Part shown: positions 6,372 through 30,968 of the stretch, one piece after another
How the letters are laid out: every line of letters starts with the position of its first letter
Position numbering within the stretch: the first letter of the stretch is position 1
From: a virus
DNA length: 35,920 nt
IMG/VR virus record: IMGVR_UViG_3300044998_000491
Location: 1 to 35,920 of that record
Direction: 5' to 3' (one strand)
Position numbers and translations under genes: made by a program
The notes under the pieces: model-generated
Seen by the model: the letters and a program-made list of their open reading frames with translations, nothing else
The model's database searches: none
Told to the model about the DNA's origin: nothing

Positions 6372-8099
6372 ATGGCAAACCGGTTGGGGCGCGCGCTGGC
6401 GTATCTGACGGAGGCATGGCGTTTTGCCCGCGCCGATGTGCAGGGCAAGCGGTTGCTGTTTGACGCGTCGCTGGCTGCGATGGCGCGCGCCGGGCAGTAT
6501 CAGACCGCGGAGACGGTGGACACCGACGCGGCATTGCGGCTGGCCGTTACATCGGCTTGGGTCTATTCGGCGCTGAACCTGATTGCCAACCGCGTCTCGG
6601 CGCGCGACGCGTTGCCGGAAGTGAAGCAGCGCGTGGGCGACGAACTGGAAGACATGGGCAACCATGAATTCGAGCGGCTGTTGCAGCGGCCCAACTCGCT
6701 GATGACCGGCAGTTACCTGCTGCGTTACACCGCATGGTGGTATGGGCTGCTGGGCAACGCGTATATCTTCATTGCCACCGCGGCGCCGGGCCGCGGCGAA
6801 CCGCAGGAACTGTGGCCGCTGCCCGCCAACATGATGCGCCCGCTGCCCGAAACGCTGCGCAACAGCGTGTTGACGGGGCAGCCTGTGGTGGATTACGAGT
6901 ACACCGTTGGCGGCGAACGGCAGACCTTGCCGGGCGAAAACGTGGTGCATTTCCGTTACCCGAACCCGTTCGACTGGTGGCAGGGTCTATCGCCGCTGAC
7001 CGCCGCGCTGCTGCCGGTGCAAACCGATCTAGCGCAGGCGCGGTGGGTGCGCGACTATTTCCGCAAAGATAACGCCGTGCCGACGGCACTGGCAACGCTG
7101 CCCGAAGGGATCACGGAAACCGATTTCGATGTCATTGTTGAGCAGGTGAAAGAGCAGATTGCATCGGGCGCGCGGATTCTGTTTACCCGCTCCGGCGACA
7201 TGACGTTGCAGACGCTGACGCACACGCTGGAACAGATGCAGGTGATTGCGTCGCGGACGTTCAGCCGCGACGAGATTGACCGCGTCTACGGGATTCCACA
7301 GGGGCTGATCAGCGGTGGGTTGTCGGGCGATTCGCGGCTGGCGGCGGAAATCAGTTTTTCGCGCAACACGGTGCAGCCGACGTGCGACTATTTTGCCGAT
7401 GTCTGGACGGAGAAGATCGGGCCGTACTACGGCGATGACATTGTGCTGGTGGCGCGGGACGTTGTGCCGCAGGATCGCGCGCTGGACGTGGCGGAATATA
7501 CCCAGTATGCGCAGGACAGAACGATCAACGAGAACCGGGCCGAACTGGAACTGGACGAAATTGAGCACCCGCTGGCCGAGATTCCCGTGCGCCTGCTGCA
7601 ATACATAGCGCCGCAGTATGCGACGCTGGACGGCAAGGAGAAGCCCGCCGCCGCTGTGGAATCCACAGGCGGGGGCGACGGCGGCGACGACGACCCGCCG
7701 GGCGTCGGGAACATCGCGGGGCAGGTGACGCCGGAGCAGGAAGCGGCGGCGCAGGCGGCGCGCAGTATCGCAATTCGCGCGGAGATGGATCGCTGGGAAC
7801 GGGTGGCGCTGAAAGAGGCGAAGGCGGGGCGCAACCCGGCTGAGCGGCCATTCAACAGCGATGTAATCCCCGACACGCTGCGCGATTCTGTGATAGCATC
7901 GTTGCAGGGGGCTGACGCGGAGACGGTGAAAGCGGTGTTTGACGGCGCAATGCAACACTGGACGGCAGGGAGCGACCCGCCCCCGCTGTGGATTCCACAG
8001 GAACGCAAGGCAGCGCGTAGCGACGTGGCTGATGCGCTGGTGGTGGCGGCGGCGCGCATTGTGGCACAGGGGGAAGCCGATGGCGTCGGCGCAGGCTAA
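6372..8099 (+). CDS. Portal protein, HK97 family, with C-terminal extension
   Basis: The ATG follows the TerL stop directly. Residues 1 to about 420 match the HK97-type portal, which forms the dodecameric ring at the capsid vertex. Typical parts are VTSAWVYSALNLIANRVS (about 57-75), LLRYTAWWYGLLGNAYIF (about 115-135), VVHFRYPNPFDWWQGLSPL, and TFSRDEIDRVYGIPQGLI followed by a GDSRLA segment near 320. At 575 aa it is longer than the usual 400-500. From about residue 428 a Gly/Asp-rich linker leads into a ~130-residue helical extension. The extension begins at one copy of the 15-bp palindrome (7654-7668) and contains another (7986-8000). It may contact the internal or minor head protein. Confidence 0.93.
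   Translation: MANRLGRALAYLTEAWRFARADVQGKRLLFDASLAAMARAGQYQTAETVDTDAALRLAVTSAWVYSALNLIANRVSARDALPEVKQRVGDELEDMGNHEFERLLQRPNSLMTGSYLLRYTAWWYGLLGNAYIFIATAAPGRGEPQELWPLPANMMRPLPETLRNSVLTGQPVVDYEYTVGGERQTLPGENVVHFRYPNPFDWWQGLSPLTAALLPVQTDLAQARWVRDYFRKDNAVPTALATLPEGITETDFDVIVEQVKEQIASGARILFTRSGDMTLQTLTHTLEQMQVIASRTFSRDEIDRVYGIPQGLISGGLSGDSRLAAEISFSRNTVQPTCDYFADVWTEKIGPYYGDDIVLVARDVVPQDRALDVAEYTQYAQDRTINENRAELELDEIEHPLAEIPVRLLQYIAPQYATLDGKEKPAAAVESTGGGDGGDDDPPGVGNIAGQVTPEQEAAAQAARSIAIRAEMDRWERVALKEAKAGRNPAERPFNSDVIPDTLRDSVIASLQGADAETVKAVFDGAMQHWTAGSDPPPLWIPQERKAARSDVADALVVAAARIVAQGEADGVGAG
7654..7668. repeat. 15-bp palindrome CTGTGGAATCCACAG, copy 1
   Basis: A perfect inverted repeat around a central A lies inside the portal gene at the start of its linker, read as AAVESTG. 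Identical or A/T-variant copies occur at 7986-8000 and 13475-13489, and partial copies occur elsewhere. Copies 1 and 2 are in different reading phases. Confidence 0.6.
7986..8000. repeat. 15-bp palindrome CTGTGGATTCCACAG, copy 2
   Basis: The second perfect copy lies in the 3' part of the portal gene, 332 bp after copy 1. Here it is read as PLWIPQ, in another phase than copies 1 and 3, so shared protein sequence cannot explain it. Confidence 0.6.
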
Positions 8100-11716: not shown

Positions 11717-12166
11717 ATGCGCACATTTGACGACAATCTGTACATCCAGAAGGTCAACAACTTCAACACGGCGATTGCCGACACGACGTATTACCCTGCG
11801 TCGGCCAGTTTCATTGACGTGTCGCGGTTCGAGCGGTTCGCGTTCCTGATTCTGGCGGGGACGCTGGACAGCGCGTTGACCTTCACCGTGCGGCAGGACA
11901 CCAGCGCGACGGCGACGGCGGGCGTCAAGGCCATCACCGACGCGGCGGTCGTCATCGGGACGGACGATGACAACAAGTGGGCCAGCATCGAAGTCCAGTG
12001 CAACAAACTGGACATCGCCAACGGCTACCGCTATGTGTCGCTATATGCAACCGGCGGGGCGGGGTCGAACGACTATGCGGCCATCGTCTTCATCGGCCAC
12101 CGCGCGGGTGAAGCGCCGGTTGTGCAGTCGGCCAGTTACCTGACGCCGGTGGTGGTGGCAGGGTAG
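11717..12166 (+). CDS. Probable capsid-associated (decoration/cement) protein
   Basis: A 149-residue protein directly after the capsid gene, with a purine-rich ribosome-binding region (GGAAGGGAGA at 11698-11707). It is beta-rich throughout, with strands such as FERFAFLILAG, ALTFTVRQDTSA, WASIEVQCNKLD and YRYVSLYATGG. It lacks cysteine clusters, membrane segments and a signal peptide. In related phages this position holds small proteins that bind the capsid surface. I do not recognise the exact family, so the role is inferred from position and fold type. Confidence 0.6.
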   Translation: MRTFDDNLYIQKVNNFNTAIADTTYYPASASFIDVSRFERFAFLILAGTLDSALTFTVRQDTSATATAGVKAITDAAVVIGTDDDNKWASIEVQCNKLDIANGYRYVSLYATGGAGSNDYAAIVFIGHRAGEAPVVQSASYLTPVVVAG

Positions 12167-12206
12167 TATTTACGGCGCAGTAGATTCGTGTCCTTGTGAC
12201 TAGGCA

Positions 12207-12232
12207 GCGGGGGAGTTTTGCCGCTCCCCCGC
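12207..12232 (+). terminator. Strong stem-loop after the capsid block
   Basis: GCGGGGGAG (12207-12215) pairs with CTCCCCCGC (12224-12232) around an 8-base loop, giving a perfect 9-bp GC-rich stem. It lies in a 96-base gap, one of the longest in the structural region. There is no T run after it, so it would be an imperfect terminator. It may instead protect the 3' end of the abundant capsid messages or reduce read-through to later genes. Confidence 0.5.
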
Positions 12233-12262
12233 CCGCCGTAACCAACGAAAGGAAGGCAAATC

Positions 12263-12844
12263 ATGAGCACAGGATACCAACCGAAAGTCCGCAGGCTTCA
12301 AGGCGGCAACGTGCTGGAAGCGGCAGAGGGCGGCGAGATCAACGTGCTGGCGGGCGCAACGCTGAACGTTGACGGGACGCTGAACATTGACGGCTCGCCG
12401 GTGGAAGTCGCGCCCGTCGCGGTGGATGAAATCACCGATGTGGATGCCACTGCCGCGGAACTGAACACGCTGGACGGCGCGCCCGCCGCGACGACGACCA
12501 TTGGCGTGGGCGCGGAGACGGGCGGCGACACGATTACCGTGACCATCCAGTTGAAAGACGCCAACGACGCCGACCTGGCAACGCGGGCGACAGTCTTTGC
12601 CTACCTGTCGGACGATGCGAACGGCGACAGCATCGCCGGAACCGCGCCCAGCGGCGGGGTGGCAATCAACACCGACGGGCTGCTGATTCCCGTGGTGGCG
12701 AACAAGGCGTTCTACCTGACCAGTGAGGCCGACGGCGACATTGCCCTCGACATTGTTGAGGCGGCGGGCGATACCTGGTATCTGATTCTGGTGCTGCCCA
12801 ACGGGTTGCTGAAGGCCAGCGGAGCCATCACCTTCGGGGCGTAA
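12263..12844 (+). CDS. Phage structural protein, head-fibre/decoration-like
   Basis: The protein has 193 residues and a good ribosome-binding site (GAAAGGAAGG before ATG 12263). The N-terminal part is a repeat-like beta region (GGEINVLAGATLNVDGTLNI, then DGSPVEV). The motif VDEITDVDATAAELNTLDGA follows; 'DVTATAAELNYLDG' is a recurring linker in phage fibres and head-fibre proteins. The C-terminal half (about 75-193) looks like an all-beta, possibly Ig-like domain. This suggests a surface appendage of the head or neck. Exposed Thr/Ser-rich strands would be plausible acceptors for the glycosyltransferases encoded downstream, though nothing shows this directly. Confidence 0.65.
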   Translation: MSTGYQPKVRRLQGGNVLEAAEGGEINVLAGATLNVDGTLNIDGSPVEVAPVAVDEITDVDATAAELNTLDGAPAATTTIGVGAETGGDTITVTIQLKDANDADLATRATVFAYLSDDANGDSIAGTAPSGGVAINTDGLLIPVVANKAFYLTSEADGDIALDIVEAAGDTWYLILVLPNGLLKASGAITFGA

Positions 12845-12856
12845 GGAGAGTGAGCG

Positions 12857-13219
12857 ATGACGGTTCTGCTGACGGCGGCGCAGCGGCAGGTTGAAATACT
12901 GGCCGTTGCGCCGGATGCGCAGGCCAGCACGAACACGGCGACGGCGGTGGCGGGTTCAGCGCTGGACGCGCGCCCGTGGCGCAGCGTGGCCTATACCATT
13001 GTCGGCGCAACGCAAACCATCGAATGGTGGGTGTACGGCGCGAACGCGGCGGACTTCAGCGATGAGGTCATCGTTGACGGGCCAGCGGACGTGGCTGCCG
13101 CCGCGGTGGATTCCTACGCCGTCGCGCAGGCTCCCTACGCTTACTACCGCGTCAAAATCAAGTCGAAGGTCAATGACGTACACGGGGCGGCGCTGGTTCG
13201 TGGTCTGGCGAAATCCTGA
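12857..13219 (+). CDS. Hypothetical structural protein, 120 aa
   Basis: ATG 12857 has GGAGAGTGAG just upstream (12844-12853). The sequence is beta-rich and Ala/Val-rich (SVAYTIVGATQTIEWWVYGA, then SYAVAQAPYAYYRVKIKSKV). The pattern resembles small beta-sandwich virion proteins, and the protein is somewhat similar in style to the one at 11717. I do not recognise a family. It lies between the head-fibre-like protein and the connector genes and is probably part of the particle. Confidence 0.55.
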   Translation: MTVLLTAAQRQVEILAVAPDAQASTNTATAVAGSALDARPWRSVAYTIVGATQTIEWWVYGANAADFSDEVIVDGPADVAAAAVDSYAVAQAPYAYYRVKIKSKVNDVHGAALVRGLAKS

Positions 13220-13227
13220 GGTGAAAT

Positions 13228-13557
13228 ATGCCTGACGAAAAATCGCCACTGGCGAAAGCCATTGATGCCATGAACGAACAGGCGCGCAAAGCGCCGCCGC
13301 GCCCCGCACCGTCAACGGAGACGGTGCGGGTGTTGGTGGCAGGGGTTTATAACGGCGCGCGGCACAAATCATTGGGATGGCGCAAAGCGGGTGAGGTTAT
13401 CGAAGTGGCAGGGGGCGCATACGCCGCCGACCTGGTGGCGGCGGGGCTGGTGGAACGCTATGAACCGCCCGCCGCTGTGGATTCCACAGCAAAGACGGTG
13501 AACACAGAAACCCCAGCGCCCGCGCCAGCGCCCACGCGCCGCCCGCGGAGGCGTTGA
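13228..13557 (+). CDS. Small phage protein with a conserved 'G-x-vi-v...A..L..aGLVE' domain
   Basis: A 109-residue protein. A short charged start and a Pro-rich stretch (about 22-30) lead to a ~50-residue domain: VRVLVAGVYNGARHKSLGWR, KAGEVIEVAGGAYAADLVAA, then GLVERY. Similar small domains occur beside head-tail connector genes in many siphophages, but their function is unknown. The C-terminus is a low-complexity Pro/Ala/Arg tail. One copy of the 15-bp palindrome (13475-13489, read as AAVDSTA) marks the junction between domain and tail. Confidence 0.6.
   Translation: MPDEKSPLAKAIDAMNEQARKAPPRPAPSTETVRVLVAGVYNGARHKSLGWRKAGEVIEVAGGAYAADLVAAGLVERYEPPAAVDSTAKTVNTETPAPAPAPTRRPRRR
13475..13489. 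repeat. 15-bp palindrome CTGTGGATTCCACAG, copy 3
   Basis: The third perfect copy sits at the boundary between the folded domain and the low-complexity tail of the gene at 13228. It is read in the same phase as copy 1 (AAVDSTA versus AAVESTG) but in an unrelated gene. Confidence 0.6.
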
Positions 13558-15185: not shown

Positions 15186-15602
15186 ATGATTGACACCACG
15201 GAAACGCTGCACAAATATCTATCCACAGTGGCGGGCATTACGGCGCAGGTGGGCGCGCGGCTGTACGGGCCGCCGGGGTTGCCGGCGGGCTACAACGGGC
15301 AGAAAGCGTTGGTATTGCTGCCCGACGGCGGCGAATCGCGTACCACGGTGCCGCTGGAACCCAACGATTTTCAGATTCGCTGCTACGGCCCGACGGCCGC
15401 CGACGGACAAGCGGTGTACCGCGCGCTGCACGCGGCGCTGAACGGCACGGGGCCGGTCAAGGTGGCTGTCACCGGCGGCAACGTGATTCTGGGCCGCGCC
15501 TGGAAAACGATGGGGCCGCGCTACATGGTGGAGCCGGAACTGGGCTGGCCTCTGTGGGTGACGGGGTGGCACATTATTTTCACTGACCGGACAGTGCCAT
15601 GA
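15186..15602 (+). CDS. Tail terminator protein
   Basis: A 138-residue protein with the alpha/beta layout of tail terminators. It has an N-terminal helix TTETLHKYLSTVAGITAQVG, the segment ARLYGPPGLPAGYNGQKALV, a strand FQIRCYGPTAADGQAVYRAL, and a C-terminal beta hairpin PLWVTGWHIIFTDR. Tail terminators cap the growing tail tube when it reaches tape-measure length. The order connector, head closure, gp10-like, terminator is standard. The tail tube gene should follow, but it comes only at 21175, after the sugar-modification island. The 3' end overlaps the first glycosyltransferase gene by 4 bases. Confidence 0.72.
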   Translation: MIDTTETLHKYLSTVAGITAQVGARLYGPPGLPAGYNGQKALVLLPDGGESRTTVPLEPNDFQIRCYGPTAADGQAVYRALHAALNGTGPVKVAVTGGNVILGRAWKTMGPRYMVEPELGWPLWVTGWHIIFTDRTVP

Positions 15603-16282
15603 ATGTTGTGGTGGCGATGATTACGTTTCGGCGTCCGCATTTGCTGCGGCGGACACTGGCATCGCTGGACAACACGGATTTGCCGTTTACGCTGTGCCTG
15701 ATGGATAACGGGTCGCAGGACGCGGAGACGCACAGCATTGTCAGCGGGCGCGGCGGGTTTACCTCGGCGTTTCCCCACAGTGTGGGCTTTGCGAAAAACA
15801 TGGTGATGACTGTGGCGCTGGCGCGCAAGCCCGATCTGGTGCTGCTTTCCGATGATGATTACGAGTACCGCGCGGGCTGGCTGGAAACGCTGACGGCGTT
15901 CTGGCGGGGTATCATGGGCGGCTATCAGTGGCGCGCGCCACACCATGATATTATCATTGCGGGAACGACGATTGAGCCGGTGTATCGCTGGAACGCGGTG
16001 ACGGGGAGCATTGAAGGGAACGGCGTGCGCGCGCTGATACGTGAGAGCGTGCCGGGCGGCGGGTGGTCGTTCCCCGCGCTGCACTGGCCGCTGATCTCGC
16101 CGTTCCCTGACCAGACCCAAAATGAGGACACGGCGCTTGTGCGGCTGCTGGCGCGGCGCGGCTGGCGCTTTGCGGCGCTGAATCTGGCGCAGCACATCGG
16201 CGCGGCGGAATCGCTGGCGGGCAACGAAACGCCGGACGATGCACCGCCGGTGGATTTGGCCGCGTGGGGGGTGGCGTCATAG
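15599..16282 (+). CDS. Family 2-like glycosyltransferase (GT-A fold)
   Basis: The ATG overlaps the tail terminator stop (ATGA). The start VVVAMITFRRPHLLRRTLAS is typical of GT2 enzymes, and DNGSQD follows about 40 residues on. LVLLSDDDYEY supplies the acidic cluster (D85-D87) that binds the metal and nucleotide sugar. The QTQNEDTALVRLLARRG segment (about 180) could hold the catalytic base. It has 227 residues and no membrane segment, so it is a soluble sugar transferase acting in the cytoplasm. The acceptor is unknown. The gene ends right at the insertion element. Its TAG (16280-16282) may lie at or within the element's end, so the last residues may not be original. Confidence 0.82.
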   Translation: MNVVVAMITFRRPHLLRRTLASLDNTDLPFTLCLMDNGSQDAETHSIVSGRGGFTSAFPHSVGFAKNMVMTVALARKPDLVLLSDDDYEYRAGWLETLTAFWRGIMGGYQWRAPHHDIIIAGTTIEPVYRWNAVTGSIEGNGVRALIRESVPGGGWSFPALHWPLISPFPDQTQNEDTALVRLLARRGWRFAALNLAQHIGAAESLAGNETPDDAPPVDLAAWGVAS

Positions 16283-16450
16283 ACCCCACGCCTAAAGGCG
16301 GGGGCTTGGCGCTGACTGTGCCAACGGATGTTGGCCAAACGTCGCACCATGAGGCGAAATGACCGTCGCCCACACGGATATATTCGTAGCGCCTACAACG
16401 TCGGCATGTTCTGAAAACCCGCAGGCGCAGCAAAGGAACTGAGATTGAGA
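16283..16450 (-). ncRNA. Probable omega RNA (TnpB guide RNA)
   Basis: In studied IS200/IS605 elements the guide RNA comes from the 3' end of tnpB and the right end, with its guide segment read from the DNA just outside the element. Here that would be - strand RNA covering the last ~150 bases of tnpB and the hairpin at 16284-16304. The guide would be copied from the 3' end of the GT2 gene (below 16283). The limits are inferred from the family, not seen as such. Confidence 0.4.
16284..16304 (-). repeat. IS right-end (RE) hairpin overlapping the tnpB stop
   Basis: CCCC, a bulged A, CGCC, loop TAAA, GGCG, GGGG. The tnpB stop codon (TAG, 16294-16292) lies in the loop and stem. The same hairpin, in the same orientation, recurs at the left end (17482-17502). 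Confidence 0.75.
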
Positions 16451-17413
16451 CCGACGATTCGCACGCTCGATATGACCACAGGCAAGGCAACGCTGGCTGG
16501 TGTATGCCGGTGCAACGACACGCACGGGCGTACCGGCCATCTTTGCCTTGTACTCAATCATGTCGCGCAACGAACCAAAATTCCAATTGCTGTGCCTGCC
16601 CCGTTGTTCACGCCGGATAGCCCTAGTCCGCTCGCGGATGCCCGCCAAATCTTCTATGGCAACCGCTCGCTTTGTGCGCGTGGCGTTGGCAACGATACGT
16701 TTGGCGATACAGTGGTTCGTGTCTTTCTGGAAACGTGCCTGCTTACCGGAGAGTCGTTTGAGTCTGCGCTTGGCGCTTTTCGTGCCACACTTTTGCAGGC
16801 GGCGGCGGGTCTTGTGCATCCGTTGGCGTGTCTTCTCAATCGCCTCACCACTGTAAAAGTTGGCGTCCGAATCCACCGCCAGATTGACGATGCCCATGTC
16901 CACACCCAGCGCCAACGTAGTCTCTTGCTCATCAGGGTCGGGAATCTCACAGGTGGCCAGCAGATAGAACGTGCCATTCTGGTACACCAAATCAGACTCG
17001 CCCTTCTGGTAACGCAGCAAGTCTCGTTGGCGCTCACCCGCCTGATAGGGAATGTTGAGGCGTCCGGACACCGACCAGATGGAAACGCGCTGCTTGTCGG
17101 TGTACCAGCGGAGGATGCGATTATCGTAGGCAATCGCGCCGTGCTTGCGGAAGGAGCGTTGCGTCTCTTTGTCCAGCCGGTAGGCATCGGCCACCTTAGC
17201 CACCAGACGCACGACCATCTGCGCCGTCAAATCGAAGCGGGCGCGAACGTCGGCATAGACCAGTTTTTGCAGACGGAACGTGCCAAACGTTCTACTTGCC
17301 CACGCCTGTTCACTGACAAAATTACAGGCAACATTCGCTTTCTCAAGCGTCTGCAAGAGGGCGGCGCGCTGTTCGTCTGTTGGTTGCAGTTTCACTTTCA
17401 CTGTCAGTTTCAT
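16292..17413 (-). CDS. tnpB: RNA-guided endonuclease TnpB, complete
   Basis: A 373-residue TnpB of normal length with all catalytic parts intact: RuvC acids D172 (LALGVDMGIVN), E254 (VAIEDLAGIRERTR) and D338 (SEHADVVGATNI). The zinc ribbon has CLAC at 309-312 and CCAC at 328-331. The arginine-rich helix (about 195-225) is typical. TnpB uses the omega RNA to cut DNA next to a short motif matching the element's insertion site, which favours re-copying of the element after its loss. The ATG is placed by the promoter, six bases downstream of the -10. The gene is antisense to the phage genes on both sides. The N-terminal half is roughly 50% identical by eye to the partial TnpB at 1-550. Confidence 0.96.
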   Translation of the reverse strand: MKLTVKVKLQPTDEQRAALLQTLEKANVACNFVSEQAWASRTFGTFRLQKLVYADVRARFDLTAQMVVRLVAKVADAYRLDKETQRSFRKHGAIAYDNRILRWYTDKQRVSIWSVSGRLNIPYQAGERQRDLLRYQKGESDLVYQNGTFYLLATCEIPDPDEQETTLALGVDMGIVNLAVDSDANFYSGEAIEKTRQRMHKTRRRLQKCGTKSAKRRLKRLSGKQARFQKDTNHCIAKRIVANATRTKRAVAIEDLAGIRERTRAIRREQRGRHSNWNFGSLRDMIEYKAKMAGTPVRVVAPAYTSQRCLACGHIERANRRSQSQFLCCACGFSEHADVVGATNISVWATVISPHGATFGQHPLAQSAPSPRL

Positions 17414-17419
17414 GCCTGT

Positions 17420-17448
17420 ATTCTAGCACAAGGGGGCTAATGTGTCAA
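17420..17448 (-). promoter_or_regulatory. tnpB promoter, near-consensus, probably leaderless
   Basis: On the - strand: TTGACA (17448-17443), 17 bases, TAGAAT (17425-17420) with TGC before it (extended -10). Six bases later comes the ATG (17413). The expected transcription start coincides with the start codon, as for the tnpB at the left edge. Confidence 0.75.
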
Positions 17449-17470
17449 ATATCAGTCATGGAGAAAGGAG

Positions 17471-17513
17471 CCGCACTTCCTCCCCACGCCTAAAGGCGGG
17501 GGCTTCCGTGCGG
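17471..17513 (-). repeat. IS left-end (LE) two-tier hairpin
   Basis: The outer stem CCGCAC (17471-17476) pairs with GTGCGG (17508-17513). Five-base loops follow on each side, then the inner hairpin 17482-17502. It matches the fold at 595-636 with changed but compensated stem pairs. Confidence 0.75.
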
Positions 17514-17521
17514 AATCTTTG

Positions 17522-18421
17522 GTGAACGTTCTCATTGCCCTCTGGCAATTTCTGACGCTGACGGGCGCGGAGATGTACGCGTACGAACTGGCGCGCGGCC
17601 TGGTCGCGCGCGGGCAGCGGGTGACGGTGACGGCGCCGCGGGTGGGCGGCGAAATTGCCGTGCGCGCGCAGGCGTTTGGCGTCAACGTGGTGCGGCGGGA
17701 CGATCTCACGGAGACGGCGTTTGACATTTTGCATCTGCAACAGCCAGAGCCGACGGCATGGGCGCTGCAACGCTTCCCCGAAGCGCCCGCAGTGATGACG
17801 GTGCATGGCCGCGTGGAGCCGTTTGAACGGCCCGTGCTGGACGAGAGAATCCGCCGTTACATCTGCGTGCTGCCAGAGATTCAGGACAGGGCGATCCACA
17901 AATACGGCGTGCCTGAGGAACAGACAACGGTTATCTACAACCCCATTGACCGTCGCCGGTTCAACACCGACGGCGCGGAAGCCGTTGACCCGCCGACAAT
18001 CCTGATGGCAGGGACACTGAACGACATCCGCGCGCCGATGTTCCGGCGGTTACAGTGGATTGCCGCGCGCGACCGGATGCAGTTGGTGGTCATTGGTGGA
18101 CAAATGGCGACATGGGACATTGAACACCATGTCAAACGGGCGCGGCTCGTGGCTGGGCTGTATCTGGGCCGCGCCGTCATCGAAGGGTGGTGTTGTGGGA
18201 AAACCGCGCTGGTGTTTCACTACGACGACACGGGGCTGGTGATAGACGACGAGCACCGCCTTGACCCGCCCGCCGACCTGACGATGTTCGACGCGGAACA
18301 TGTCACCGACCAGACGCTGGCGGTGTACAGGAAAGCCGCTGAGGGGGCCAGCGTCGGCGCTGACTTAGGCAAAGGTCGTAAGACACCGGAAAACGCTAAA
18401 AACCCGCCAGCGGCCTTGTAG
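17522..18421 (+). CDS. GT4-like glycosyltransferase (GT-B fold), divergent
   Basis: The N-terminal domain is a clear GT-B donor of the GT4 type: VNVLIALWQFLTLTGAEMYA, then YELARGLVARGQRVTVTAP. The linker holds YICVLPEIQDRAIHKYGVPE and VIYNPIDRRRF, typical of GT4 ('vi.NGvD...F'). The C-terminal nucleotide-sugar domain is short. It has a single Glu in AVIEGWCCGKTALVF (about residue 221) where GT4 enzymes usually have E-x7-E, so the first Glu is missing. I chose GTG 17522; TTG 17519 is also open. The start lies within ~10 bases of the insertion element and has no ribosome-binding sequence. The original one may have been in the 3' end of the GT2 gene and been separated by the insertion. Confidence 0.75.
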   Translation: MNVLIALWQFLTLTGAEMYAYELARGLVARGQRVTVTAPRVGGEIAVRAQAFGVNVVRRDDLTETAFDILHLQQPEPTAWALQRFPEAPAVMTVHGRVEPFERPVLDERIRRYICVLPEIQDRAIHKYGVPEEQTTVIYNPIDRRRFNTDGAEAVDPPTILMAGTLNDIRAPMFRRLQWIAARDRMQLVVIGGQMATWDIEHHVKRARLVAGLYLGRAVIEGWCCGKTALVFHYDDTGLVIDDEHRLDPPADLTMFDAEHVTDQTLAVYRKAAEGASVGADLGKGRKTPENAKNPPAAL

Positions 18422-18454
18422 GGCGTTCTGGAAGCCAACAACAGAAAGGATGGC

Positions 18455-19186
18455 ATGATGGAACAGCAGCAACGACAGTCTTACGATGGCTCTTGGTACG
18501 ACAAGGACTACTTTGACAACCCCCTGTCAGGCAAGGGCTATCCGATGCGCTACGCGCCGGACAGCGCGCCGTGGGCCGCGCTGGCGCGGTGGATTATCCA
18601 CAAGGTGAAGCCGCAGACGGTGGCCGACCTGGGCGCGGCCAAAGGGTATCTGCTGTACGAATTCGTCAAGCGGGGCATCTTTGGCATTGGCTGGGACTTT
18701 TCGCCGTATGCGGTGGAACACTGCCTGAAGCAGGTTATCGTGTACCAGCATGACATCCGCAAACCCGTCGAGTGGTCATTGAACAGACCGCCGGACGTGG
18801 CCTTTCTGCTGGACGTGCTGGAACACCAGACCGAAACCGACCTGGACGCGATTATGATCACGCTGGCGCTGCTGCGCCCGCGGCTCATCGTGGTTCATGC
18901 CGGGCTGGCGGGAACAGAGGACGAAAACGAGGCGTCGCACGTGACGCTGTGGACGCGCGCCGAATGGCTGGCGTATTTCCATGACAACGCGTTGCAGGCG
19001 GTGGACTGGCAGGACGAATACCGCGCGCACCTGAACGACCTCGGCGCGGTGGGGCAGACCTGGGCTGAACGCGCCTTTGTGCTGGAACGGCAACCGACGG
19101 TGTACCGCGATATGCCCGTGAGCCAGTGGATGCAGGATGAGAACCTGAAAGGCGGCGTGACGGTGTTGGAGCCGGTGCATGGCTGA
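18455..19186 (+). CDS. Class I SAM-dependent methyltransferase
   Basis: A 243-residue protein (ATG 18455, or the next codon 18458; GAAAGGATGG lies just upstream). It has the Rossmann-type SAM-binding motif TVADLGAAKGYLLYEFVKRG (motif I at about 56-65), the acidic end of beta 2 in GIGWDFSPYAVEH, and DVAFLLDVLEHQTE as motif IV. The form is that of methyltransferases that modify sugars or small molecules; it lacks the motifs of DNA methyltransferases. A C-terminal tail (about 200-243) includes YRDMPVSQWMQDENLKGG. Lying among glycosyltransferases, it may methylate the glycan they build, for instance as a cap, which is inference. Confidence 0.8.
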   Translation: MMEQQQRQSYDGSWYDKDYFDNPLSGKGYPMRYAPDSAPWAALARWIIHKVKPQTVADLGAAKGYLLYEFVKRGIFGIGWDFSPYAVEHCLKQVIVYQHDIRKPVEWSLNRPPDVAFLLDVLEHQTETDLDAIMITLALLRPRLIVVHAGLAGTEDENEASHVTLWTRAEWLAYFHDNALQAVDWQDEYRAHLNDLGAVGQTWAERAFVLERQPTVYRDMPVSQWMQDENLKGGVTVLEPVHG

Positions 19187-19433
19187 CGGCGCGGGGCCGC
19201 ACAAAGCCGATTTACCTGTGACCGTGCGTTTCCGCCTGAACCGGGCGGGCACGATGTTCCGCGTGGCCGTGTCGCCGTTACCGCCGCAAATCGTTGAGAT
19301 CACCTATGCCGAAATTGGCGGCCAGCGCGTGCCGCGGCCGTGGTGGGTGGCCGACATGGCGGCGCGCACCATCACCATTTATGAGCCGATGAAGATCATG
19401 GACGCGCCCACGATCCTGCCGACGCGCAACTGA
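19179..19433 (+). CDS. Hypothetical protein, 84 aa
   Basis: ATG 19179 overlaps the methyltransferase stop by 8 bases. The protein is small and mostly beta: LPVTVRFRLNRAGTMFRVAV, then PQIVEITYAEIGGQRVPRPW and ARTITIYEPMKIM. There is no signal peptide or membrane segment. I do not recognise it. It ends the first part of the island and is followed by the strong terminator at 19462. Confidence 0.55.
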   Translation: MADGAGPHKADLPVTVRFRLNRAGTMFRVAVSPLPPQIVEITYAEIGGQRVPRPWWVADMAARTITIYEPMKIMDAPTILPTRN

Positions 19434-19461
19434 ATCCACAGTAGGGAGAGACGACAATGGG

Positions 19462-19492
19462 ACGGCGTTCCCGCGCGGGAACGCCGTTTTTT
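19462..19492 (+). terminator. Strong rho-independent terminator
   Basis: A perfect 26-base GC-rich palindrome (19462-19487, two arms of 13) is followed directly by six T residues (19487-19492). It is the best terminator in the window and splits the late region in the middle of the sugar-modification island. Transcription must restart, or read through under antitermination, for the tail genes. Confidence 0.85.
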
Positions 19493-19504
19493 ATGTCAAA
19501 TGTA

Positions 19505-19571
19505 GTGTATGGTTGGTGTGTAGTGTATAGGAAAAGGATTGACGTATACGTGAAAAAAGGGGTGTATACGT
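19505..19571. promoter_or_regulatory. Phased operator/iteron-like repeats
   Basis: The motif GTGTAT (or ACGTAT) recurs at 19505, 19523, 19542 and 19562, steps of 18, 19 and 20 bp, about two helical turns each. The third unit is a perfect palindrome, ACGTATACGT (19542-19551), and the fourth is 9/10 identical (GTGTATACGT, 19562-19571). They overlap the promoter spacer and -10 box, which suits a repressor or activator array. Confidence 0.55.
19539..19568 (+). promoter_or_regulatory. Candidate sigma70-type promoter
   Basis: TTGACG (19539-19544), an 18-base spacer, TGTATA (19563-19568), just after the terminator. It would transcribe the holin-like gene, GT4 and the tail genes, leaving a leader of about 250 bases. 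The -10 coincides with an operator-like unit. Confidence 0.5.
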
Positions 19572-19829
19572 AGGGGATATGTGAAATCGGCTGCATAACC
19601 CTACAAACCCTACATTTGACGCTCAGGGGCGCGGTGGGGCCGCGCAAACCCACCATGACGCGCCCGCGCCGCCTCTGTGGGGGTGCAAGGCGCGGGCATG
19701 GCGCTATGTAGTGGCAGAAACACTGCCGCGAATCATGATATACAGGATACGAGGCGGCTTTTTTGCGGGCTGCGATATCGAGTAATCCGATGTGATGCAA
19801 TTTCGGGCGATGACAGAAAGGGGCGGGTC
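19572..19829 (+). other. Long untranslated leader with stem-loops, no gene seen
   Basis: Together with the upstream signals this makes a ~400-base stretch (19434-19829) without a convincing gene. I see hairpins at 19629-19645 (GCGCGG/CCGCGC) and 19713-19727 (GGCAG/CTGCC). GCCGC (19725-19729) and GCGGC (19754-19758) are separated by a long loop and followed by TTTTTT (19759-19764), a possible weak terminator or attenuator. Short frames inside it lack good ribosome-binding sites. Confidence 0.4.
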
Positions 19830-20138
19830 ATGTCATTCATCGAAGCGCTGGCGTGGGCCAGCACGTCTGAGGGGATTAACGCGATCCTCGGCGTGCTGCT
19901 GTCGTGGGTGGTGGAGTTGTTTCCGGAGTGGGCGGATATTTCGCCGTTCCACAAACGGCTGTATCTGCTGGTGGCGTCGCTGGCGATTCCGCTGGGCGCG
20001 GCGGGGCTGGCGGTGGCGACGGGGTACAGGGAACACAGCATTGAATTGACGTATTGGCCCGCTGTTGAGGCGGGTGCAGCCGCGTTCATCGCGGGGCAAA
20101 TCCGGCACGGGCTGACGCTGAGCCGCAGGGGCAAATGA
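19830..20138 (+). CDS. Holin-like membrane protein
   Basis: ATG 19830 follows GAAAGGGGCGGG. The 102-residue protein has a first hydrophobic segment (about 15-30, INAILGVLLSWVVELFP), the charged loop SPFHKRLY, a second span (about 45-65, LLVASLAIPLGAAGLAVATG), and a third weaker one near 80-92 (VEAGAAAFIAGQ). The pattern 'YFP.w..lp..kKRl...l' followed by two spans is common in holin-like proteins of siphophages. Holins time lysis by opening the inner membrane. It stands apart from any endolysin in this window. Its stop overlaps the GT4 start. Confidence 0.6.
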   Translation: MSFIEALAWASTSEGINAILGVLLSWVVELFPEWADISPFHKRLYLLVASLAIPLGAAGLAVATGYREHSIELTYWPAVEAGAAAFIAGQIRHGLTLSRRGK

Positions 20139-21178
20139 CGATGCGCGCACCGTACCGCGTGGCGTGGATTCCGTTGCATGACGATGACGCGTCGGGCTAT
20201 GGCCGGGTGGGGCAATATCTGTTCCATGCGCTGAAGAACGCGGGCGCGCAGATGTGCCAGCGGCGGGACTGGGATTGGGATGCGCGGGTGGCGGTGGGCG
20301 GCCCGCGGTCGTGGCTGGTGGGTCGCGGCGATGACGTGAAGGATGACCTCGTTTTTCACACGATGTTCGAGGCCCGTCCGTTGCCCGCGGATTGGGCGCC
20401 GGTATTGAATCGCTGTGCCGCCGTCTGGACACCGGCAGAATGGAATGTCGGCGTGTTGCGGGAATCGGGCGTGACTGCGCCGATCTTCGTCAGCGGGTAC
20501 GGCGTTTCGGACAAAGAATTCACCTATGTGGAGCGAAACAGGGCCGCTGATGCCCCCTATATTTTCATGTGGGCTGGGACAAGTTGGGGCGAGACGATAG
20601 ACGGCACGATGTTGGGAGATCGCAAGGGAGGCGATCTGGTCGTCGAGGCGTTTCGCAAACTGAACCTGCCGGACGCGCGGTTGATCCTGAAGGCGGGCGG
20701 GCGATCGGCCATCACCGAGATTCGGGGTGATGACCGGATTGCGCTGCTGAGCGGACGGATGCCACTGCCTGAGTATGCAGCGCTCATGGCGACGGCGGAC
20801 TGTTTCGTTTACCCCTCGCGCGGGGAAGGGTTTGGCCTGCAACCGCTGGAAGCGATGGCGACGGGGTTGCCGTGCATCGTGACGCAGTACAGCGGCATGG
20901 CCGAGTACGCGCGGGAAGGCGTGACGCTGCCCCTTGCGCCTGTGGGCGAGGAGCCATCGCAAGCCTTCGAGTTTGTGTATGGCTACCGGTGCTGGTGGGC
21001 GCAGATCAGCGTTGACGACATCTGTGACCGGATGCAGTGGTGCTATGAAAATCGGGAAGCCGCCGCGGAGATTGGCAAACGCGCGGCAGAATACGTTGCG
21101 CAGGAATGGACGTGGGATAGCGCAGGGGAACGGGCCTTGCAACTGCTGCAAGGCCATGTTGAGAGGGTGCGAACATGA
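20135..21178 (+). CDS. GT4-family glycosyltransferase (GT-B fold)
   Basis: A 347-residue GT4 enzyme with the classic C-terminal E-x7-E motif in YPSRGEGFGLQPLEAMATGL (E231 and E239). It also has AGTSWGETIDGT and KGGDLVVEAFRKLNLPDARL for the nucleotide-sugar side. The N-terminal acceptor domain begins YRVAWIPLHDDDASGYGRVG. It is soluble. The ATG overlaps the holin-like gene and its stop overlaps the tail tube ATG (21175-21178), so it is translated in line with tail genes. The sugar and acceptor are unknown: a virion protein, the host surface, or modified DNA are all possible, with the virion favoured by operon position. Confidence 0.88.
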   Translation: MTMRAPYRVAWIPLHDDDASGYGRVGQYLFHALKNAGAQMCQRRDWDWDARVAVGGPRSWLVGRGDDVKDDLVFHTMFEARPLPADWAPVLNRCAAVWTPAEWNVGVLRESGVTAPIFVSGYGVSDKEFTYVERNRAADAPYIFMWAGTSWGETIDGTMLGDRKGGDLVVEAFRKLNLPDARLILKAGGRSAITEIRGDDRIALLSGRMPLPEYAALMATADCFVYPSRGEGFGLQPLEAMATGLPCIVTQYSGMAEYAREGVTLPLAPVGEEPSQAFEFVYGYRCWWAQISVDDICDRMQWCYENREAAAEIGKRAAEYVAQEWTWDSAGERALQLLQGHVERVRT

Positions 21179-21696
21179 CAATCGCTGCAACTACCGCCGC
21201 GCGTATGTGGCTGGACGGCGGCACGTTTACGATTGACGGTGTGGATGTGGGCGCGTCGCCCCAGCAGACGGGAACCTTTGCCGTCGAGCAGGAAATCTAC
21301 AAACCGCGGCTGGCCGGCGCGCGGGGGTTCATTGCGGGCATCGCGAAGATCATCACGGAGCACGCGACGCTGCAAATGAACCTGGTGGAACTGAACGTCG
21401 GCAACCTGCAAAAGGTGCTGCCGATGGTGACGAGCACCAGCGACGCCAACAGCGAGTACACCGTTTCGGAGTCGTTTGGCTACATCGGCGCGTCGGAACA
21501 CCTGACCGTCATCTGGGACGGTGAGACGATGGACAACGACGATGTGCTGATCAAGTTGTACAACGCGCTGCCGGACGGCGGGCTGTCGGTGACGCTTTCG
21601 GACACGGCGGAATCGCAGATGGCGATCACGTACCGCAGCCATTACACGATGGCTGCGCCGAAAACCCGCAACTGGCAGGTGTTCGTCGCGAAGTAG
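21175..21696 (+). CDS. Major tail tube protein
   Basis: A 173-residue, beta-rich protein with the style of siphophage tail tube subunits: ARMWLDGGTFTIDGVDVGAS, then GTFAVEQEIYKPRLAGARG, a middle segment HATLQMNLVELNVGNLQKVL, and C-terminal SHYTMAAPKTRNWQVF. Tube proteins stack as hexameric rings around the tape measure. It is followed by the chaperone pair and the tape measure, the standard order. Its start overlaps the GT4 stop. Confidence 0.82.
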   Translation: MTIAATTAARMWLDGGTFTIDGVDVGASPQQTGTFAVEQEIYKPRLAGARGFIAGIAKIITEHATLQMNLVELNVGNLQKVLPMVTSTSDANSEYTVSESFGYIGASEHLTVIWDGETMDNDDVLIKLYNALPDGGLSVTLSDTAESQMAITYRSHYTMAAPKTRNWQVFVAK

Positions 21697-26000: not shown

Positions 26001-29000
26001 GCGATGCGCTAAAGACACCCATTGAAGCCGTTAAGGGTGCGATTGACGATGTGATCAGCGCCGTCAATTCACTGGTGGACTTGATTGCCAATCCGTTTAC
26101 GATCACCATTCGGGTACCAACCCCCACATGGCCGACGCCGCCCCAATGGTTGCAGAATCTGTGGAATGGCATCACAGGGGTTCCATCAGGGCCGCCTTCC
26201 ACACCGCCCAATGTACCGCCGACGAATCCCGACGGATCGCGCCGCTTTGAGTCGGTGATAGGGGGCAGTGGTCTGATTGCGGGCGGCAAGGCGCTGCTCA
26301 CCGATTTCACCGGCATTGTTGACCAGTTGGCGCGGGTGGCGCGGGCGATGATTGACGTGGCGCGCGACCTGTTCGCGGAGGTGGGCGACGAGGAACAGCG
26401 CAAGGTCATTGACAAGCAGATGGAGTTGTTCAACCAGTTGGCGGCCTCCACGCGGGGGCTGACCGACGCCTACGCCGCGCTGGCGCAGGAATTGCCAGAG
26501 GTGGACACAGCGCGCATCACGAGTGTCATGCGCGTGGCACGCGAACTGATGGGCGAACTCCTGATTGCCGCACGCGAACTGTTTGGCGATGCCAGCGCGG
26601 AAGACCTCGACAAGCGGCTCCCTGCTGTGGAAGCCTTCGCGTCGCTGGGCAGTAAACTGGGTTCCTTCGTGTCCGGCGTGGTGGGCGCGTGGGGGACGCT
26701 GGGCGGTGAGTTGCCGCCTGTGCCTGACGATTTGCGGCAGCGGATTGGCGCGCTGCTGGGCGTGGTGGCGGTGGTGGCCGACGAAATCGAAGGCATGACG
26801 GCGCGCGATTGGGCCAACGTGGCGGCGCTGGCTGCGCAGATGCAGCCGGTGATGGATATTGTGTCGGGCGCGGCGCGGGCCTTGCAGGACATGGCCGCGT
26901 GGAAGCCGACGCCGGGCATGGGCCAGATTTCAACCGAAATCCTGAAATGGGCCGTGTCGGTGGTGGAATTCCTGCGCGGCCACGCGGCCCAGCACATGGG
27001 CGACGAAGCGCCGCAGATGGATGTCTTTGGTGACGCGGTGGGCGCGGCCATGTCTGTCCTGTCGGACACGGCGCAGGCGTTGCAGACGCTGGCGCAGTGG
27101 AAACCGACGGCGGGCATGGGTGAGATCAGTACGAATCTGGCGAAATTCGCCGTCGCGGTGGTGGAACTGATGGCGGGCCACGCGCAGAAGGTGTTGGGCG
27201 ATGAGGTGCCCAACATCACGGCCTTTGGCGAGGCGGCGGGCGCGGCCATGGCGGTCTTGTCCGACACGGCGCAGGCGCTGATGGTTCTGAAACAGTGGAC
27301 ACCCACAGCGGGGATGGGTGCGATCAGCACCAACGTCGCGAAATTCGCGGTGGCGGTGGTGGAACTGATCGTGTCGCTGGCGAAACGGTTCGATCAGGAA
27401 GGGTTGGACGCGGCGAAGCGGATGGCCGAGGCGCAGACGCCCATCATGCAGGCGATTCAGTCCACGGTGCTGATGATGCAGGCGCTGAAAGAGTGGGAAG
27501 GCGCGCCGAATCTGGGCCGGATCAGCACCAACGTCGCCTTGTTCGCGGCCGCGGTGATTGATCTGATGGTGTCGCTGGCGACGCGGTTCCAGCAGGAAGG
27601 GTTGGACGCGGCCAAAGCCATGTCCGAGGCGGCGGGGCCGGTGATGGATGCCCTGTCGGGCACGCTGTCCCTGATGGCCGGGCTGAAGGAGTGGCAGGGC
27701 GCGGAAGGGCTGGGCGTCAAATCGTCCAACGTGATCAAATTCGCGGTGGCGATTGTGGATTTCGTCATCGCGCTGGCGCAGAAATTCGACGCGGAAGGCA
27801 TCGCGGCGGCGCAGCGGTTCGCAACGGCCGCGGGGCCGGTGATGAGCGCGCTGGAATCTGCCCTCAACTTTATGAACGGGCTGAAGGAGTGGGAAGGCGC
27901 GCCGGGGCTGGGCGTCAAGTCCACCAACATCATCAAATTCGCGGTGGCGGTGGTTGACCTGGTGCGCGCTCTGGCGGCGCAATTCAGCGAAGAAGGGCTG
28001 GCGGCGGCGGCGGAACTGGGCGACACCATCGGCCGCGTGACGGCGGGCCTGAAAACGGCGCTGGATTTGCTGAACGGGCTGCGCGATTACACCGAAGTCC
28101 CCGAAACCAACGTGCTGCAATTCGAGCAGGACTTGCTCTTTATCATGCAGCGGCTGCGGGTGTGGCTCTCCGGCCCGCTGGCGACGCTGGCCGATGAAAC
28201 GGTGACGGCGGCGGCGCAGGCGATTGGCGTCATTGCGGGCGGGCTGCGCGGCGCGGTGGATTTGCTGAACGGGCTGCGCGATTACACCGCAGTCCCCGAA
28301 ACCAACGTGCTGCAATTCGAGCAGGACTTGACTTTCCTGTTGCAGCGGATGATCTTCTGGCTGACGGGGCCGCTGGCGATCTACGCCGATGAAGTGGTGG
28401 AAAAGGCGGGGCGCACCATCGGCGTTGTGCTGGGCGGGCTGGGCGATGCGCTGGGCCTGCTGAAGGGGCTGAAGGAATACACGCGGCCCACGATGAGCGT
28501 CATCGAAGACTTTGTGGCCGACGTGACCAAGACCTTCAGGATGTTTGCGGACTGGGTGCTTTTGGAATTCGCGGACGGCGTGCCGGACGTGATTGCCAAG
28601 TTTGGCGCGGCGGCGTCGTCGCTGTTCAGCGGCCTCACCAGCGCGCTGACGCTACTGAAGGGATTGAAGGATTACACACAGGTTCCGCAGCAGGCGATGG
28701 ACGATTTCATGGCCGACGTGCAGCGGATTGTGGATGCCTTTGTCCGCTGGGTGGGGGGCCGCTTTGGTGACAAGGTGGATGAAGGTGTGGTCGCATGGGG
28801 CGATGCAATGTCGTCGCTGTTTGGCGGGCTGTCCAGCGCGCTGAAACTGCTGCTGGAACTGCCCAAGTACGTGCCGCCCGCGCAGAGCGCGATGGATCGC
28901 TTTGTAGATGACGTGCTGCACATGATGGTTTATTTCATCTCCATCATGCCGCCGCTGGACGACGAAACGGCGAAGGCGGTGACGGCCTTTGGCAGCACCA

Positions 29001-30121: not shown

Positions 30122-30133
30122 TGAAAAGGTGTT

Positions 30134-30805
30134 CTATGATTTTCGTCTTTTGTATCGCACAATGCGTCCAATTTGGCTCTGAGATACACCAAATTCCACC
30201 GCAAGCACGGTTTGCGTTATGTTCTCTTTGGCGTACCGTTGACGAATCTCTGCGACTTGCGCATCAGATAATTTATATAACGCATATTTCCCTTTGGGAG
30301 AACGTTTTCGGCGTTGAGCAGAGGATGGTACTCGGTTTTCATAATGCAAAATCCCCCAGACTTGGCGTATTCCAACGCCAAATCGTTGCGCTAATGCGGG
30401 TTGGCTTATCTCCCCTGTGGCATACAGTTGCCGGATTTCAGCGACTTGTTTATCGGATAATTTGCAACTGGGGTGTTTCTCTCCGCGCACCCAATTACGG
30501 CGTCCTTTCTTCTGACAATCTGACAGATTGTCTTTTTGTGTACCAAGAAACAGGTGTGAAGGATTTACACAAGAGGGATTATCACAGTGATGGCATACAC
30601 ATAGACAATCAGGGATGGAGCCATTGGTCAGTTCCCATGCAACGCGAGAGGCAATTGCCATATGGTTATTCCAACGAATCTCACCATATCCGCGCTTGTC
30701 TTTCGCGGCAATCCACAGCCAGCAAGCGTCAACGCCACCGGACTTGTCAACCTTTGACCAAAAACGTTGTAAATCACGTGCAGAAGGAGTATACTGGGGT
30801 TGCAT
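30134..30805 (-). CDS. HNH homing endonuclease with two helix-turn-helix repeats
   Basis: A 223-residue protein on the - strand, stop TAG at 30136-30134. It starts at ATG 30805 with AAAGGAGA about 8 bases upstream. The N-terminal half is an HNH nuclease of the phage homing type: FWSKVDKSGGVDACWLWIAA, then ASRVAWELTNGSIPD and CHHCDNPSCVNPSHLFLGTQ (H72/H73, N81, H84, with Cys 71, 74, 79). KDNLSD follows. The C-terminal half has two helix-turn-helix units (KLSDKQVAEIRQLYATGEIS at about 114, KLSDAQVAEIRQRYAKENIT at about 176). It lies antisense between tape measure and hub genes and has lower GC than its surroundings, signs of a free-standing selfish gene. Confidence 0.92.
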   Translation of the reverse strand: MQPQYTPSARDLQRFWSKVDKSGGVDACWLWIAAKDKRGYGEIRWNNHMAIASRVAWELTNGSIPDCLCVCHHCDNPSCVNPSHLFLGTQKDNLSDCQKKGRRNWVRGEKHPSCKLSDKQVAEIRQLYATGEISQPALAQRFGVGIRQVWGILHYENRVPSSAQRRKRSPKGKYALYKLSDAQVAEIRQRYAKENITQTVLAVEFGVSQSQIGRIVRYKRRKS

Positions 30806-30831
30806 TTCCGAATCTCCTTTCGGGATGCCAT

Positions 30832-30871
30832 CCCCAGGCTGTTCTAGCAGCGCTGGGGAGTTTTCTTGTCT
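30832..30871 (+). terminator. Stem-loop with T-rich tail, possible terminator
   Basis: CCCCAG (30832-30837) pairs with CTGGGG (30853-30858), with CTG/CAG able to pair inside. TTTTCTTGTCT follows on the + strand. It could stop + strand messages, or be part of the untranslated leader of the HNH gene on the - strand. Confidence 0.35.
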
Positions 30872-30874
30872 CTG

Positions 30875-30903
30875 ATTGTAACATAAATACGGAAATCAGG
30901 CAA
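30875..30903 (-). promoter_or_regulatory. Promoter of the HNH endonuclease gene
   Basis: On the - strand: TTGCCT (30903-30898), exactly 17 bases, TACAAT (30880-30875) preceded by TGT (extended -10). It lies about 70 bases upstream of the HNH start codon, so the gene can be expressed independently of, and against, the late operon. Confidence 0.7.
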
Positions 30904-30968
30904 GGAAAATACAGGGAAGATATGCGCCTGCATATTACTTGCATGATTTCCGCGCAAGGGCTTAACCA

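Follow-up and report, generated by a model that had tools for sequence, protein, structure and literature searches.

Our analysis of IMG/VR record IMGVR_UViG_3300044998_000491, a 35.9-kb viral fragment (the window; 35,920 nucleotides (nt) at its full length), reveals a family-4 glycosyltransferase (GT4) gene that ends at the start of the tail tube gene and can be regarded as near-core in a siphophage-like tail module. In particular, homologues of this gene, here termed GT4b, keep the same place between the tail terminator and tail tube genes in related phages, are co-inherited with the tube protein, and stay with the tail module in phages of different head types. From sequence comparison we infer that the locus probably serves virion glycosylation, with the tube protein as the main acceptor; enzymatic activity, transferred sugar, and acceptor are predicted.

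Layout of the locus

The interval between the putative tail terminator gene and the tail tube gene contains glycosyltransferase (GT) genes of families GT2 and GT4, a methyltransferase gene, two genes for small proteins, and a TnpB element (Table 1). The tail terminator protein has no Pfam or PHROG match and is named from its position and synteny. The tube protein is identifiable by its fold, which Foldseek matches to the tube proteins of JBD30, YSD1, Mystique, and other phages (model predicted local distance difference test (pLDDT) score 74). The original prediction from the window described six genes forming a glycan-modification island fused into the tail operon. Open reading frames and profiles bear out the six genes and the 4-base overlaps with the flanking tail genes (15599-15602 and 21175-21178), while the TnpB gene had been overlooked and about 1.2 kb skipped. 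Terminator and tube genes can be neighbours, as the original prediction took to be normal: in SpaA1, a cultured phage related through its tube sequence, one gene sits between the HK97-gp10-like and tube genes.

Table 1. Features of the locus, in window coordinates
Feature	Position	Strand	Evidence and remarks
Putative tail terminator, left border	15186..15602	+	Follows the HK97-gp10-like tail completion protein; every relative has a homologue in this position
GT2 glycosyltransferase, accessory	15599..16282	+	PF00535 8.1e-8
TnpB-element hairpin, right end (copy 1)	16284..16307		24-nt repeat CCCCACGCCTAAAGGCGGGGGCTT; stable fold
TnpB, IS200/IS605-type element within cassette	16292..17413	-	guided_TnpB (NCBIfam NF040570) 1e-55; PF07282 8e-21; PF01385
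TnpB-element hairpin, left end (copy 2)	17482..17505		Identical 24-nt repeat; stable fold
GT4-like glycosyltransferase, accessory	17522..18421	+	GTG start; PF13439 1.5e-18
Class I S-adenosylmethionine (SAM) methyltransferase, accessory	18455..19186	+	PF13489 4.6e-5 (below curated cut-off); phrog_27380 5.9e-6
84-residue protein, no assigned function	19179..19433	+	8-nt overlap with methyltransferase gene; no family match (Pfam, PHROG, NCBIfam)
Intrinsic transcription terminator within interval	19459..19490	+	-24 kcal/mol, z -4.35
Holin-like membrane protein, 102 residues	19830..20138	+	Single strongly hydrophobic segment; 19-residue hydropathy 2.12; no family match
GT4b (canonical GT4), near-core tail-module gene	20135..21178	+	PF13692 2.8e-18; PF00534 6.9e-17
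Tail tube (major tail) protein, proposed acceptor	21175..21696	+	phrog_885 8.3e-14; tail-tube fold

GT4b is a canonical GT4 enzyme

GT4b has the GT-B fold, the EX7E motif, and the profile score above a curated cut-off that mark a CAZy-type GT4 (PF13692, 67 bits versus a cut-off of 27). Specifically, the AlphaFold2 model shows a complete GT-B fold (pLDDT 89.3, predicted template modelling score 0.89), and Foldseek relates it to GT4 structures including PimB', MshA, and BshA. Within the EX7E motif, E231 is invariant and E239 nearly invariant across 11 sequences, and R163-K164 is conserved. The top structural match, which is also the best solved profile match, is the Chlorella virus NY2A glycosyltransferase B736L (PDB 3oy2; Foldseek 5.6e-16, hidden Markov model comparison 7e-14); it differs in being a eukaryotic-algal virus protein and is 12% identical to GT4b.

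Among 50,697 phage records, 154 have a homologue of GT4b; in the two that were inspected, the gene lies elsewhere. The closest in cultured phages are Faust gp18 and gp19 and Mildred21 gp40 of Streptomyces phages (Stanwilliamsviridae; 26-28% identity over 93%), whose genes, unlike GT4b, lie near ribonucleotide reductase and endolysin genes and not between terminator and tube genes. In a tree of GT4b with other GT4s, the tail-linked GT4s can be neither confirmed nor rejected as a monophyletic group, the outgroup branches being very long.

GT4b is a near-core gene of divergent tail modules

To collect related modules, we combined three probes: a GT4b query, which retrieved L002 and later L017; a major capsid protein (MCP) alignment, which retrieved L009 and L014; and, as a GT-free probe, an alignment of the tail-completion protein (A10), which retrieved 17 IMG/VR loci. 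Removal of duplicates left 12 modules: the window, L002, L009, L017, L022, L025, L026, L028, L030, L032, L034, and L035. The interval after the terminator gene is visible in all of them, in L009 only in part; the modules are few, they come mostly from fragmentary records, and all of the data are sequences. Multi-member alignments were needed, as IMG/VR scans with the single window tube, MCP, or GT4-like proteins returned nothing. In GTDB the MCP alignment found nothing and the GT4 alignment found only an unrelated actinobacterial GT4, and we therefore assign no host.

A GT4b homologue lies between the terminator and tube genes in 11 of the 12 modules, the exception being L028, in which the interval holds a GT2 gene (PF00535 3.5e-8) and an unassigned protein instead. 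Nine of the modules were recovered by probes other than a GT (L009 by MCP, eight by tail completion), and eight of these nine carry GT4b. The tube proteins of modules with GT4b at this place are 20-45% identical.

The companions of GT4b differ from module to module, and we therefore regard GT4b as the fixed part of the slot and the rest as exchangeable. The GT4 stands alone in L025 and L026. Its neighbours are a hexapeptide acyltransferase and a GT2/Anp1-like protein in L017; a GNT-I-like GT in L022; a methyltransferase, a DegT sugar aminotransferase (PF01041), a CAP59-like GT, and a hexapeptide acyltransferase in L030; methyltransferases in L032; and an extra gene of unknown family in L035. 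L002 has the GT4 and an alginate-lyase-like gene in the slot, and a GT2, a methyltransferase, and another GT before the head-tail connector; L034 has an epimerase gene (PF01370) about 7 kb upstream of the slot, among head-tail genes. By family assignment, the acyltransferases, the DegT aminotransferase, the GNT-I-like and CAP59-like GTs, and the methyltransferases among these neighbours are typical glycan enzymes.

Two further observations concern these relatives. The alginate-lyase-like protein of L002 (L002:11095-12354, between GT4 and tube; PF05426 6e-7) has a signal-like N-terminus and is a candidate phage depolymerase or virion part. In L014, a more distant relative, the terminator-tube interval is without a GT, and a sulfotransferase gene (L014:11802-12614, PF00685 9e-10) directly follows the decoration gene.

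GT4b is co-inherited with the tail tube protein

The spacing between GT4 stop codon and tube start is -4 to +13 nt in 8 of 10 modules. Five of seven splits recur in both the GT4 and the tube tree, a number reached by none of 20,000 label permutations (maximum four), and pairwise identities are correlated between the GT4 and tube proteins (Mantel r 0.60, p about 0.001). For GT4b and the terminator protein the correlation is 0.53, as expected for genes of one module.

The head proteins do not follow this pattern. The window, L002, L009, and L025 have one MCP type in common (HK97-like, 482 residues in the window), while L017 has a DUF6260/Linocin head type and L022 and L028 have a protease-head fusion. 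Because head proteins differ while GT4b stays with the tail module, GT4b follows the tail, which points to an acceptor in the tail rather than among decoration proteins. The decoration proteins at 11717-13219, candidates in the original prediction, are accordingly disfavoured.

On this conservation, linkage to the tail is more than chance for GT4b: the relatives keep the GT4 at exactly the same place, so the placement is not accidental, and it is the particular accessory set that is not conserved. Chance cargo, in which host capsule genes were dropped between two tail genes, is highly improbable as an account of the locus. Although the window GT2 and GT4-like proteins have no relatives in the collections searched, a transposon lies among the genes, and accessory content varies widely, GT4b occupies one place across modules with such divergent tube proteins, and the third-codon-position GC content (GC3) of the cassette genes is the same as in the rest of the record. 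Chance cargo is thus largely refuted for GT4b and may still apply to single accessory genes.

Accessory enzymes of the window

The window GT2 has a GT2 domain (PF00535, 32.8 bits versus a cut-off of 23.3) with a DxD-type motif; by eye, its motifs read DDD at residues 85-87, E176-D177, and H199. From the EX7E motif of the GT4 and the DDD and ED motifs of the GT2, the enzymes of the locus look active. The profile hits of the methyltransferase are weak but consistent, and its homologue stands at the same slot in L032 (L032:11343-11975, 29% identity, 3e-22). No tblastn match to the GT2, the GT4-like protein, or the methyltransferase was found in the cultured-phage collection, and no homologue of the GT4-like protein in the IMG/VR scan; by BLAST the window GT2 has no homology to its counterparts in L002 and L017, and the window methyltransferase none to the L002 enzyme. 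The small membrane protein has a weak positional counterpart in L009 (L009:9065-9370). Searches of the record for DegT (PF01041) and epimerase (PF01370) genes were negative, in agreement with the earlier statement that nucleotide-sugar synthesis genes are absent.

The tail tube protein as probable acceptor

The enzyme families, the intact motifs, and the retention of the GT4 at one place support the predicted glycan-modification function. Of 32 window proteins, the tube protein is the richest in Ser+Thr (17.3%; mean 11.0, standard deviation 2.7), and it contains three invariant hydroxyl residues, T7, S89, and S93, features that would fit an O-linked acceptor. In the proposed mechanism, GT4b would be translated directly ahead of the tube protein and, drawing on nucleotide sugars of the host, would add a sugar to it (or to some other tail protein) as the tail assembles or earlier. 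The accessory enzymes, in the window the GT2, the GT4-like enzyme, and the methyltransferase, would then extend and methyl-cap the glycan. They would be swapped between phages, as expected if the glycan structure is under diversifying selection. As a benefit, such a glycan may mask the tail against host or environmental binding, add stability, or aid adhesion.

Several observations weigh against this assignment. Linkage is evidence of co-inheritance and not of a substrate. GT4b is not strictly essential, as L028 is without it, and T7, S89, and S93 are conserved in L028 as well; a shared S-D-x-x-S-E motif of the tube protein is therefore only a candidate glycosylation site. Serine and threonine are generally common in tube beta-proteins. 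In L002 and L022 other sequence separates the GT4 from the tube gene, and the tail-completion probe alignment was built from four GT4-bearing members. Finally, L002, L030, L034, and L035 have further GT-type genes among their head genes, and acceptors besides the tube are likely.

A head protein (capsid or decoration) or another tail protein might be the acceptor in place of the tube, an alternative that we consider unlikely. The additional GT-type genes among head genes favour it, as do the Ser+Thr content of the decoration protein at 11717 (16.1%) and the glycosylation of capsid proteins, too, in mycobacteriophages (PMC11256854, PMC12363180); the persistence of GT4b with the tube despite differing head proteins, and the match of the GT4b and tube trees, argue against it. 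It is rather more doubtful that GT4b is a dedicated tail-morphogenesis enzyme, the sugar on a conserved tube hydroxyl (for example S89 or S93) serving to build or stabilise the tube; if so, a protein glycosyltransferase would be a near-core structural-module gene and not an optional decoration gene.

Modification of the host surface, with host envelope glycans altered late in infection or in the lysogen (seroconversion or superinfection exclusion), is very unlikely. Phage GT genes are often such morons, and PHROGs files the matches under moron/host takeover. However, the GtrA flippase (PF04138) is absent from the window and 10 relatives tested, some of these records being fragments, and the pairing of GtrA with a bactoprenol GtrB that characterises GtrABC seroconversion was not found. 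Hydropathy shows no membrane-spanning segment in the GTs, and the locus is embedded with translational overlap in a late structural unit, in which GT4b is co-inherited with the tube. The host surface, named as a possible acceptor in the original prediction, is thereby weakened. Glycosylated (hypermodified) phage DNA, also named there, is the least credible target: GTs can glucosylate modified bases and the window encodes an N4/N6 DNA methylase (1184-1963, PF01555 7e-32; itself likely anti-restriction or epigenetic), but the locus sits among tail genes and the window genes scanned include no base-hydroxymethylating or thymidine-hypermodifying enzyme, an absence that is weak evidence in a fragment. 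The record lends this target no support.

An internal terminator and a TnpB element divide the cassette

The cassette is fused to the morphogenesis genes at its outer edges and split in its interior. A perfect, textbook-type intrinsic terminator with a 14-bp stem, CGCG loop, and T tract, together with about 400 nt of non-coding sequence, separates the GT2, GT4-like, methyltransferase, and 84-residue-protein genes from the membrane-protein, GT4b, and tube genes. The interval is therefore not one transcription unit unless there is read-through. A simple promoter scan found no convincing plus-strand promoter 3' of the terminator. The stretch just past it (19495-19620) contains a 17-nt imperfect inverted repeat, GTCAAATGTAG.../...CTACATTTGAC, with arms 92 nt apart, as well as TATACGTA-like repeats. 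This non-coding stretch is a possible regulatory region for the tail genes. A search with Rfam matched no known RNA.

The TnpB gene lies between the GT2 and GT4-like genes on the opposite strand and encodes a complete RNA-guided nuclease of 373 residues. Its RuvC and TNB domains and the hairpin repeats at both ends are those of IS200/IS605-family elements; it differs in that TnpA (PF01797) is absent from the record, making it a TnpB-only element. With the GT2 gene ending close on one side and the GT4-like gene beginning close on the other, the element seems to have inserted between two intact genes, and it would be a later insertion; its GC3 is 0.65, versus about 0.78 in its neighbours. The element is a mere passenger at the locus. 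That it serves in homing of the cassette is improbable; relatives have TnpB genes, none of them near the GT slot. Phages of this group often carry TnpB elements, with five matches in the single L030 record (G019), one in L034 (G022), and three in L037 (G024).

The locus is thus not a single island acquired as a block, as first proposed: GT4b is near-core and co-inherited with the tube, the other enzymes are exchangeable, and a transposon landed among them.

Other features of the window

A perfect palindrome, CTGTGGAWTCCACAG, occurs at 7654-7668, 7986-8000, and 13475-13489 (0.03 occurrences expected with up to two mismatches). Two of the three copies lie inside the portal gene, and the palindrome is possibly an operator-like or regulator-binding site. 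The tape measure gene contains tandem repeats of about 195-198 nt at 26944-28447, corresponding to 65-66-residue repeats. After the tape measure gene, the gene at 30118-31242 has a GC content of 0.50 and a GC3 of 0.49, versus 0.63 and 0.78 elsewhere, and is therefore a probable recent acquisition.

Relation to known systems and significance

Phage virion glycosylation is known from a few actinobacteriophages. The closest parallel is the cassette of Corndog and other cluster O mycobacteriophages (gp35-gp38: an O-methyltransferase, two GTs, and an N-acetylglucosaminyltransferase), which lies between the portal and capsid protease genes and has been proposed to put methylated glycans on virion proteins (PMC4351075). 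Later papers (PMC12363180 and PMC12619734, both citing Freeman 2023) report mycobacteriophage glycans on the capsid and tail tube. The window has the same combination of GTs and a methyltransferase inside a virion structural operon. It differs from Corndog in the position of these genes between tail terminator and tail tube, in the co-inheritance of one GT4 with the tube across many phages with variable partners, and in belonging to a different, uncultured lineage. The kind of system, a virion glycosylation cassette, is thus already known, and what is new is that, in an uncultured lineage, a GT4 is near-core to a tail module, a variant of which we found no description in a non-exhaustive literature search.

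The near-core behaviour of the GT4 extends over at least 12 divergent tail modules and several types of head, and the tailoring enzymes beside it are swapped. The locus would supply pairs of enzyme and acceptor, a slot at which nature has varied the tailoring enzymes, and a marker by which to find more glycosylated phages. Should the tube be the acceptor, tail glycosylation would be shared by the whole lineage, and a simple two-gene system comprising the GT4 and the tube protein could show the glycosylation.

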